From Anaerolinea sp. (GTDB taxonomy: Bacteria; Chloroflexota; Limnocylindria; Limnocylindrales; CSP1-4), in contig PNKK01000012.1 in assembly GCA_013822395.1 (NCBI GenBank), forward strand, positions 1-64,000: a stretch of 64,000 nt of DNA, read 5' to 3'. A program made the translations under genes and the position numbers. Shown here piece after piece: positions 43,881 to 47,511 of this stretch. The stretch's first letter is position 1. The number at the start of each line of letters is the position of its first letter. The notes under the pieces are model-generated. The model did no database searches and was not told where the DNA came from. It worked only from the letters and a program-made list of their open reading frames with translations.

Positions 43881-44843
43881 ATGGTGACCAGCTGGCTGGC
43901 CGAGCTCGACGGTCGCCGGGTCGCGGTCGAGGTGCCGGCGACGACGGCGAACCTCGGCGCGGGCTACGACTGCCTCGGCATGGCGCTCGAGCTGACGAAC
44001 CGCGTCGGCCTGGAAGTCAGGAGCTGGAGCCGCAGCGGCATCGAGCTGTCGGTGGACGGGGAGGGGGCTGGTGAGCTGCCGGCGGATCGCCGCAACCGCT
44101 TCGTCGAGGGAGTCGAGACGGCGATCCGGGAGGCGCGCGGAGCGCTGCCCGAGGGCGCCAGCTGGCGGATCGAGATGATCAACCGGATCCCGCTCGCGCG
44201 CGGGCTCGGGTCCAGCGCGGCCGCGACCGTGGGCGGCCTCCTCGCCGCGAACGCGCTCCTCGGCAACGTCCTCGCGCCCGCGGAACTGCTCCGGCTCGCG
44301 ACGGCGATCGAGGGGCATCCGGACAACGCCGCCGCCGCGCTTCTCGGCGGGTTCGTCGTGTCCGCGGCGATCGGCGAGGGGGTCGAGGGGATCCGATTCG
44401 ACGTCCCGCGCGGCATCCGTGCCGTCATCTTCGTCCCGGACCTCCGGCTCGCCACGAACGAGATGCGTCGCGTCCTCCCGGTCAGGGTGCCCCGCGCGGA
44501 CGCGGTCGCGAACCTTGGACGCGTAGCGATCGGCGTCGCGGGGATCGCCACGGGCCGGCGGGACGCCCTCCGCCTGCTGACCGAGGACCGGCTCCACGAG
44601 CCGTATCGGGCGACCGTCTATCCGCAGCTCCCCCGGATGGTCGGGGATGCGCGCGCCGCGGGGGCGCTCGGGGCATGCCTGAGCGGGGCTGGGTCCGCGA
44701 TCATCGCCTTCACGGACACCGTGGCCGGCGTCGCGCGGATCGAGGCGGCATTCCGCGCGGCCGCGGCGGACACGGACCTGCCGGGCCGGGTCGAGGTCGT
44801 GGCGCCGCGCAACGCCGGCGCGAGAGTGATCGCCGAGCCCTGA
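43881..44843 (+). CDS. thrB: Homoserine kinase
   Basis: 320-aa GHMP kinase with the N-terminal PATTANLGAGYDCLGMAL, the ATP loop PLARGLGSSAAATVGG and the C-terminal GACLSGAGSAIIAF. It phosphorylates homoserine for ThrC. ATG 43881 is 37 bp after the thrC stop. The stop codon lies within the first copy of a 35-bp direct repeat. Confidence 0.95.
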   Translation: MVTSWLAELDGRRVAVEVPATTANLGAGYDCLGMALELTNRVGLEVRSWSRSGIELSVDGEGAGELPADRRNRFVEGVETAIREARGALPEGASWRIEMINRIPLARGLGSSAAATVGGLLAANALLGNVLAPAELLRLATAIEGHPDNAAAALLGGFVVSAAIGEGVEGIRFDVPRGIRAVIFVPDLRLATNEMRRVLPVRVPRADAVANLGRVAIGVAGIATGRRDALRLLTEDRLHEPYRATVYPQLPRMVGDARAAGALGACLSGAGSAIIAFTDTVAGVARIEAAFRAAAADTDLPGRVEVVAPRNAGARVIAEP

Positions 44844-44947
44844 ACGGCGGCCCTTCGGGGTCGATCGGTTGACGGCGGGGCCCGAACGGCTCCCGAGACG
44901 CGGTCTCCGATCTGAACGGCGGCCCTTCGGGATCGATCGGTTGACGG
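44841..44947. repeat. 35-bp direct repeat spanning the thrB stop
   Basis: Copies at 44841-44875 and 44913-44947 differ at one base. Both begin TGAACGGCGGCCCTTCGGG, and the first TGA is the thrB stop codon. The spacing between copies is 72 bp. Confidence 0.9.
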
Positions 44948-45168: not shown

Positions 45169-45187
45169 CGCCCGGCGAGGCCGGGCG
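45169..45187 (+). terminator. Hairpin at a convergent gene boundary
   Basis: Perfect 8-bp stem CGCCCGGC / GCCGGGCG with a 3-nt loop, 9 bp after the small membrane protein and at the point where the dienelactone hydrolase homology on the other strand ends. There is no T-run. Confidence 0.5.
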
Positions 45188-45189
45188 GA

Positions 45190-45852
45190 GATGGAGCGAT
45201 GCTCCACGCCGGCCCCATCAAGCGCCATCTCGAACTCCGCGACGGTCGAGGCCGGGATCCCCTGGTCCGCGCCGCCCCAGATGGCGAGGATCGGCGACGC
45301 GATGGCCGACGCCAGGTCGGCGGGTGCCGGGGTGCCATTGCGCGACAGGCCCGTCGGCCAGCCGTAGAAGCCGATGAGCCCGGCAAGGCCCAGGCCCAGG
45401 GTCCCCGACAGGAACGTCAGCCGGCCGCCCATGCAGAAGCCGGTGGTGAAGAGGCTCGCAGGGGCGCGGCCATCCGCCCAGCTCGGCGATCGCAGCATCG
45501 CGACACCGGTCCGGATGTCCGCGGCGAGGGTCTGCCAGGTCGTCTGCGGCACGTGCGGGGCGTAGTCGAAGTCCGGCCCACGCCGGCCCTGCTCGGCGGT
45601 TCGGGCGAAGTAGTCGATGGCGAGCGCATCGATGCCGTGTTCGGCAAACCGCAGGGCGAGTTCCTCGTAGTAGGCGTGCAGCCCGTGGACATCGGGCAGG
45701 ATGAGGATGCCGGCGCCTGTCGGCCTGGCGGCAACCGCACGGAAGGCGGTGAACTCGGTGCCGTCCTCCGATGTCAGCGTGACCAGCCCCGCGTCGAGGG
45801 CGCCACCCGCGATCGGTGGGATCGGCGGGCGGCTGTCAGCGTCGAAGCACAT
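45190..45852 (-). pseudogene. Dienelactone hydrolase, 3'-truncated
   Basis: The start ATG 45852 (MCFDADSRPPIPPIAGG) and about 220 residues match the dienelactone hydrolase family: ILILPDVHGLHAYYEELALRFAEHGIDALAIDYF, the nucleophile elbow GFCMGGR, and the Asp loop WGGADQGIP. Homology stops at about GAGVEHRS (45190), just before the segment that carries the catalytic His (usually PHSFFDR). The frame continues to 44710, antisense to thrB, as unrelated low-complexity sequence. The catalytic triad is incomplete, so it is probably inactive unless used for another purpose. Confidence 0.8.
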
Positions 45853-45929
45853 GGCATGACCTCCTTGTGAGGTTCCCTGCGGACCGGCCCGCGCGCTCCC
45901 GGACCGGGACCCGGCAGTACGTTGATTCC

Positions 45930-46149
45930 TTGCATCACGCGCAAGACGACGACCGCGCGTTGCGCCCGATGCAACCAAAGCGCAGCCCCGGGTTCCATGG
46001 TGGCGTGTCGTTGCATCGCACGCAACGGACCGCCCCGACTTGGCCATACCTCGATCCGTTCGGGTCGATTCCATGCAGCCTATGCAAAGAGTCGATCATT
46101 TGACCGGCCGACAGCTCCGCGTACTGGAAGTTGTTTGCGTCTGCTGCAA
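45930..46149. promoter_or_regulatory. Array of five dyad sites upstream of lysC
   Basis: Four exact TTGC-N7-GCAA sites (45930-45944, 45960-45974, 46011-46025, 46135-46149) and one with ATGC as left arm (46073-46087). The last has 6-bp arms GTTTGC / GCAAAC. Centre spacings are 30, 51, 62 and 62 bp, each near a whole number of helical turns. The array fills the 384-bp gap between the divergent dienelactone hydrolase remnant and lysC. It looks like a multi-site operator; the regulator is unknown. Confidence 0.6.
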
Positions 46150-46236
46150 ACGCTGAGGCTCACTCGACGCCCGCGGTCGGAGCCTTCAGACGATTCCCTC
46201 GGAGCCATCGAACGCGTCGGGTAGAATCCGCGCCCG

Positions 46237-47511
46237 ATGCATCGCCCCCTCGTCGTCCAGAAGTTCGGTGGCTCGTCCGTGGCCAACGCGGATCGGATTC
46301 GCCGAGTCGCGCGCCGGATCGCCCGCGAGCGGTCGGCCGGCTCTGACCTCGTCATCGTGGTCTCCGCGATGGGCGATACGACGGACGAGCTGCTCACCCT
46401 CGCCCACGCGATCACAGACGAGCCAGACGCGCGAGAGCTGGACATGCTTCTCGCGACCGGCGAGCACCAGAGCGCGACGCTCGTCTCGATGGCCCTCCAC
46501 GCCCTCGGCGTGGACGCGATCTCCCTTACCGGGCCGCAGGCCGGGATCACGACCGACGGCCGCTACGGCCGGGCTCGGATCGCCAACGTGGAGCCCCGCC
46601 GGATCCGCGCCGAGATTGAGCGTGGGAACGTCGTCATCGTGGCCGGCTTCCAGGGCCAGAGCGCCGCCGACGCCGATCGGGCCGAGATCACGACCCTGGG
46701 CCGCGGCGGCAGCGACACGACCGCGGTGGCCCTGGCCGCCGCCCTTCGAGCCGACCGCTGCCAGATCTTCACCGACGTCAGGGGCATCTACACCGCCGAC
46801 CCGCGCCTCGTGCCGGCCGCCCGGCAGCTGCCGGTCATCGGCTACGAGGAGATGCTCGAGCTCGCCCACCAGGGTGCCCAGGTCATGCAGGTCCGGGCGG
46901 TCGAGCTCGGCTGGGTCAACGACGTCGTCATCGAGGTCCTCAGCTCGTTCGAGGACGCGCCCGGCACGCTCATCAGGGAGGATCCGTTCGTGGAGCAGCG
47001 GAACAAGGTCCGGGGCCTCGCCCACGACCGGAACGTGGCCAAGGTCACCCTCGTCGACGTGCCGGATCGGCCGGGAGTCGCCCGGGCGGTCTTCGAGCCG
47101 CTCGCCGAGGCTGGGATCAACGTGGACATGATCGTCCAGAACGTGGGCCACGGCGGCGCCACGGACATGTCGTTCACGGTCCCCCGGGCGGAGCTCGGGA
47201 AGGCGAAGAAGGTCCTCGAGTCCCTCGTCCGGGAGCTCGGGGCCCGCGAGCTGACCACCGATGCCTCCGTCGCGAAGGTCTCGATCGTGGGGGCCGGGCT
47301 TCACAACGCGCCGGGCTACGCGGCGCGGATGTTCGGGGCACTCGCCGACGCGGGCGTGAACATCGAGATGATCTCGACGTCGGAGGTCCGGATCACCTGC
47401 ATGATCGCGGAGGACGAGCTGTCGACCGCGCTGGCGGCGCTCCACGGCGCGTTCGAGCTGACCCGCCCGGACCCTGTCGACGTCACCGCGACCGGCCTGT
47501 CCGCCGGGTGA
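46237..47511 (+). CDS. lysC: Aspartate kinase
   Basis: 424 aa. It phosphorylates aspartate, the first step to lysine, threonine and methionine. VVQKFGGSSVANADRIR opens the kinase domain, with TTLGRGGSDTTAVALAAAL and FTDVRGIYTADPRLV following. Two ACT domains occupy about residues 265-410 (VTLVDVPDRPGVARAVFEPLA and VSIVGAGLHNAPGYAARMF), the usual site of lysine/threonine feedback. GTGA overlap with birA downstream. Confidence 0.96.
   Translation: MHRPLVVQKFGGSSVANADRIRRVARRIARERSAGSDLVIVVSAMGDTTDELLTLAHAITDEPDARELDMLLATGEHQSATLVSMALHALGVDAISLTGPQAGITTDGRYGRARIANVEPRRIRAEIERGNVVIVAGFQGQSAADADRAEITTLGRGGSDTTAVALAAALRADRCQIFTDVRGIYTADPRLVPAARQLPVIGYEEMLELAHQGAQVMQVRAVELGWVNDVVIEVLSSFEDAPGTLIREDPFVEQRNKVRGLAHDRNVAKVTLVDVPDRPGVARAVFEPLAEAGINVDMIVQNVGHGGATDMSFTVPRAELGKAKKVLESLVRELGARELTTDASVAKVSIVGAGLHNAPGYAARMFGALADAGVNIEMISTSEVRITCMIAEDELSTALAALHGAFELTRPDPVDVTATGLSAG

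Follow-up and report, generated by a model that had tools for sequence, protein, structure and literature searches.

BIME/REP clusters of enterobacteria are groups of intergenic palindromes that occur in any gene orientation; to our knowledge they have neither a ladder of fixed helical-turn spacings nor a cognate gene encoding a helix-turn-helix (HTH) nuclease. RAYTs are Y1 (HUH) transposases which act on single-stranded DNA hairpins of two inverted REPs. REPIN-RAYT systems comprise a dispersed population of extragenic palindromic sequences and a cognate gene whose loci are stable and whose flanks contain the repeat, each gene lineage having its own repeat type (PMC3116915, PMC8049555). The array described here shares with BIME/REP clusters the intergenic palindromes in any gene orientation, and differs from them by its helical-turn ladder and by an HTH-nuclease-like gene. 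It resembles REPIN-RAYT in its dispersed extragenic repeats, in a stable-locus gene flanked by the repeat and in a lineage-specific repeat type. However, the protein combines an XRE-type HTH with a PD-(D/E)XK-like domain and is unrelated to RAYT, and the repeat consists of four to six helically phased double-strand dyads instead of a hairpin of an inverted REP doublet. The array is one of about 11 dispersed copies in its genome, and we consider it probable that it is a cognate site of this XRE/PD-(D/E)XK-like protein, which is encoded on contig C32.

The window, the whole 64,000-nucleotide stretch analysed, is part of contig C12 of a 2.93-Mb draft genome from an uncultured member of the Chloroflexota (G000; 194 contigs, about 70% complete). 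It contains five 15-bp dyads at the positions given in a preliminary description: D1 (TTGCATCACGCGCAA, 45930..45944), D2 (TTGCGCCCGATGCAA, 45960..45974), D3 (TTGCATCGCACGCAA, 46011..46025) and D5 (TTGCGTCTGCTGCAA, 46135..46149) are exact TTGC-N7-GCAA sites, and D4 (ATGCAGCCTATGCAA, 46073..46087) reads ATGC-N7-GCAA. The distances reported there were borne out as well, at 30, 51, 62 and 62 bp from start to start. The whole element extends over 45924..46155 on the plus strand according to a profile from the genome's copies (covariance-model match 173 bits, E 1e-45). Dyad arms reach up to 6 bp (TTGCAY-N3-RTGCAA) and are accompanied by boxes that recur in other copies: GATTC-N before a dyad, here at 45924-45928 for D1 and 46067-46071 for D4 (GATTC), N-CAACT after D2, and AGTTG-N before D5. 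AGTTG precedes D5 at 46129-46133, as in every other full copy, whereas D2 is followed here by CCAAAG in place of the N-CAACT of other copies. The boxes after D2 and before D5 give the element a rough inverted symmetry. A single motif is common enough, with 10 sites in the window at no more than one mismatch versus 7.8 expected, but five dyads within 230 bp are far beyond chance, the maximum in 200 simulated windows being two sites. The phasing of the window array alone was moderately significant, since about 1.6% of random spacings equalled or beat its value. Judged from the sequence, the array most likely serves one dimeric DNA-binding protein.

The genome-wide search that the preliminary description had called for found the array, spaced 30-51-62/73-62 bp, at about 11 intergenic sites of G000: ten full copies (the window copy and those on C1, C2, C4, C13, C14, C17, C32, C38 and C79) and one that runs into a contig end (C78). 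With a profile derived from nine copies, all ten full ones were detected at E below 1e-40, and no further clear match turned up in this genome. All were classed as intergenic by a simple codon-usage gene finder, the C13 copy overlapping the end of a predicted ORF. The D1-D2 (30 bp) and D2-D3 (51 bp) spacings were invariant, and D4-D5 was 61-62 bp wherever both sites were recognisable. D3-D4 measured 62 bp in the window versus 71-74 bp in most copies, which is about one helical turn more. Identity of the copies to the C32 copy is now 0.51-0.71, and mean pairwise identity was 0.83 in the dyad arms versus 0.51 in the spacers. This implies that selection kept the dyads and their spacing while the copies diverged. 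Comparison of the G000 copies with each other revealed no target-site duplication, clean element ends or terminal inverted repeats.

The array lies in the divergent promoter region between a dienelactone hydrolase (DLH) gene (45187..45852, minus strand) and the aspartate kinase gene lysC (46237..47511, plus strand), a position that speaks for the first proposal, an operator array through which a transcription factor controls lysC or DLH specifically. We regard this proposal as very improbable. About ten other copies lie at intergenic sites near unrelated genes in tandem, convergent and divergent orientation, many of them at 3' ends. A -10-like box of lysC, TAGAAT (46222..46227, plus strand), located 9 bp before the ATG, falls outside the element and is conserved in relatives whether the array is present or absent. 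Moreover, DLH and lysC are adjacent throughout the genus, but the array is not conserved before related lysC genes: the gap has no array in the close relatives G005 (63 bp), G007 (110 bp) and G012 (92 bp), and it holds arrays of unrelated sequence, dispersed in those genomes too, in G008 and G014. The latter two occurrences exceed random placement and would favour a link to lysC. The DLH-lysC gap is the only array location common to several species, a count that is biased because these families were spotted by looking there. A promoter-regulon reading in general was rejected on the mixed orientation of neighbouring genes, the 28 classified arrays being 16 tandem, 7 convergent and 5 divergent without promoter bias. 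If the reading of a dispersed element is right, a striking array that resembles an operator upstream of a biosynthetic gene may be a copy of such an element and not the control of that gene. The truncation of DLH noted previously is real: the gene is 3'-truncated with 222 of about 258 aa left, the APHSFFDR stretch is gone, and the relatives are intact. Just past the truncated end lies a 36-bp direct repeat (97% identical, at about 44840-44875 and 44912-44947).

The preliminary description had seen no matching regulator gene beside the array. This holds at the window locus but not for the genome as a whole, where rpoD, the main sigma-factor gene, flanks the C32 copy on one side and a small XRE HTH gene, which ends 73 bp from it, on the other. 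In another genome (G017, C328) the XRE homologue ends 14 bp from an array. Of the 107 genomes of the family, 75 had a homologue; among 400 sampled genomes of the phylum, homologues were found only within this class. About 70 loci were examined; in 22 of them the gene adjoins rpoD, mostly convergently, and two more syntenic loci were found. Many rpoD-XRE gaps contain an array with a different dyad and the same 10.4-bp spacing ladder, for example TTCCG (G005), TACGC (G011), TCATAC (G004), TGCCC (G015) and GTGCA (G091). De novo dyad clusters with a score of at least 9 and ladder spacings occurred in 13 of 138 XRE flanks versus 4 of 285 controls; automatic detection yields a convincing array at only about a tenth of the flanks, and several more were called by eye. 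All 22 rpoD-linked genes fall into one group of 39 in the tree and the loci are strongly clustered, which points to largely vertical inheritance of the gene. Spread by phage or plasmid was rejected, as phage and plasmid records held no homologue of the XRE protein.

The connection between gene and array was put to a prediction set beforehand: the dyad beside the XRE gene of G005 (contig C61), TTCCG-N5-CGGAA, was counted genome-wide. It occurred 27 times in G005 versus 2 for a control pattern, and 0-3 times in each of 14 sister species of the genus. Eight dispersed G005 regions, picked regardless of spacing, had neighbour distances of 30, 40-41, 51, 60-63, 71-72 and 112 bp, and their phase concentration was 0.94 at 10.35 bp, the highest null value being 0.69. 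A constant phase at varying turn number is not readily explained if all were copied from one master, and it fits binding on one face. Furthermore, among 14 gene-array pairs with hand-curated half-sites, dyad similarity tracked recognition-helix similarity (Mantel p 0.004), also when overall relatedness was taken into account (partial Mantel p 0.018). Arrays were weak in the sister family f5.

Phasing was overwhelming across 26 arrays from related genomes, whose spacings fell on 30, 41, 51, 61-62, 72-73 and 82 bp with a resultant of 0.92 at 10.5-10.6 bp versus a 99.9% point of 0.44 under the null. Together with the window array, this supports the helically phased, same-face arrangement proposed earlier. 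Two dyads 30 bp apart, searched for in 177 genomes of the class, occurred at 15 places, all in five genomes of a single family, versus 0 for the reversed control; G000 itself has 7 such pairs. In a scan of named genomes, four of the seven stretches found (Clostridia twice, Reyranella, Bacteroidetes) were isolated dyad pairs without an array and were dismissed as chance. The arrays of G008 are built on ATCGAC-N7-GTCGAT and those of G014 on TGCTCG-N5-CGAGCA. Copies in G014 (L121-L131) are three-dyad arrays flanked by TTCCCTCGA and spaced 51+51, 51+41 or 61+41 bp, including one upstream of lysC, and copies in G008 (L164-L168, L172) are elements of about 170 bp with near-perfect terminal inverted repeats (TTTGTTTCAGATCGAC) and terminal dyads 125-137 bp apart. 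None of the XRE genes fetched matched the G008 or G014 family; some families are therefore orphaned or have another partner. G013 carries another dispersed palindrome, ATAGTGCTCCCCCCACGAGCAT (L134-L140), in about 20 copies with conserved flanks that are not obviously arrayed. In G042 (L103, C224) a pair of IS3-type transposase genes is separated by 10 bp from an array and may have inserted into it.

Like MITEs, the arrays are short dispersed non-coding elements, and they could be no more than MITEs mobilised by a conventional transposase, with the XRE gene just a frequent neighbour. The terminal inverted repeats of the G008 copies (TTTGTTTCAGATCGAC) and the IS3-type transposase gene beside one G042 array are consistent with this explanation. 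However, ends of this kind were seen in G008 copies only, G000 copies showed none, and no target duplication was seen in copies of either genome, nor did a parental transposon turn up. The arrays likewise differ from MITEs in that their internal dyads and spacing are under selection, and a dyad taken from beside the XRE gene predicted a genome-wide family in G005. Moreover, a search for the Y1 (HUH) transposase domain PF01797 was negative in 17 of 17 genomes with positive controls, G000 being about 70% complete. We therefore consider conventional MITEs improbable. The same search led us to reject a RAYT as partner of the arrays. We set the arrays apart from REPIN-RAYT on negative results such as this one; a cautious reading would count them as a variant of the REP type.

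A structured RNA element or hairpin attenuator is the least likely of the explanations weighed and can practically be dismissed. The dyads are palindromic and single copies fold stably, but a search of Rfam gave no match, the covariation term was about zero with pairs that are invariant or ambiguous, and helical phasing would be meaningless for RNA. The RNA or riboswitch reading was rejected on the missing Rfam match and covariation. With respect to REPIN-RAYT, the inverted boxes at D2 and D5 constitute a partial likeness, while the array has no conserved RNA-type fold.

The XRE protein comprises about 217-230 aa with an HTH_31 domain and a C-terminal domain for which Pfam, NCBIfam and PADLOC gave no match. 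In 27 homologues E114, D127, E140-x-E142, Q149 and K158 are invariant. The structural model (pLDDT 92-93) shows the order alpha-beta-beta-beta-alpha-beta known from PD-(D/E)XK nucleases and places the conserved residues in the strands and helix expected for this fold. A fold search with the lone domain returned mostly PD-(D/E)XK nucleases as top matches, at weak E-values (best 0.011, probability 0.98), including OkrAI, R.BspD6I, the XisH family, Bax1 and an archaeal Holliday junction resolvase. By prediction, the C-terminal domain thus folds like a PD-(D/E)XK nuclease. Its likeness to OkrAI/BamHI-type restriction enzymes, the XisH family and Holliday junction resolvases lies in the predicted alpha-beta3-alpha-beta core with E, D and ExE in the usual strands; unlike in these enzymes, the domain is fused to an XRE HTH.

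The gene-array linkage, the G005 prediction and the phased dispersed arrays led us to the reading of a dispersed array with a cognate protein. The array, its dispersal and phasing, its linkage to the gene and the lineage-specific dyads are features of the genomes themselves, accompanied by a predicted nuclease-like fold; from these we infer that the protein binds the dyads and that it does so cooperatively. A dimer of the XRE protein would bind each 15-bp dyad. With whole numbers of helical turns (3, 5, 6, 6-7) from one dyad to the next, four to six dimers would sit on one DNA face and join cooperatively in a single looped or wrapped complex. The XRE gene would stay at stable chromosomal loci, chiefly by rpoD, while copies of the array arise at other intergenic sites; in each lineage the recognition helix and the dyad would change together, as in REPIN-RAYT. 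The putative nuclease domain might spread the arrays by a nick or cut followed by repair or strand transfer, a speculative step to which we give rather less than even credence.

The main alternative for why arrays are kept is an in-place role in chromosome folding. The XRE protein would then be a nucleoid or regulatory protein of a genome-wide regulon or architecture, its nuclease domain being secondary or without activity, and the arrays would be functional sites maintained where they lie by selection, their dispersal being old. Dyads and spacing preserved across spacers diverged to about 50%, unlike in dead mobile copies, and the strict same-face phasing at variable turn number speak for such a role. 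Conversely, array positions differ between species except for the DLH-lysC gap, promoters are not favoured, and the catalytic-type E, D and ExE are invariant in the 27 homologues. On balance we judge this alternative unlikely.

Returning to a dispersed array with a cognate protein, we tentatively suggest, as a possibility falling somewhat short of an even chance, a second and independently evolved symbiosis of the REPIN-RAYT kind, with a genome and a population of short DNA sequences as partners, in which the rpoD-side XRE-HTH/PD-(D/E)XK protein copies, maintains or polices the arrays and recognition and dyads turn over between species. The open-access literature yielded nothing describing such a combination of array and HTH-nuclease-like protein. 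If true, this would be a second bacterial system of a dispersed repeat with a dedicated enzyme, unrelated to RAYTs. It would also offer dozens of HTH proteins as a natural series, many of them next to their own predicted binding array, and would thereby make both the coevolution of protein-DNA specificity and the persistence of such sequence populations in bacterial genomes directly testable.

Downstream of an XRE gene in G097 (L199, C124), a TCGACC-N3 dyad recurs in a 34/19-bp tandem pattern that is not a helical ladder. In G000, a second, decayed XRE paralogue with an internal TGA (L225, C39) has GGTCGAT-N3-TCGACC arrays on both sides, and the same motif is found in G013 (L222) beside the orthologue of this decayed paralogue.
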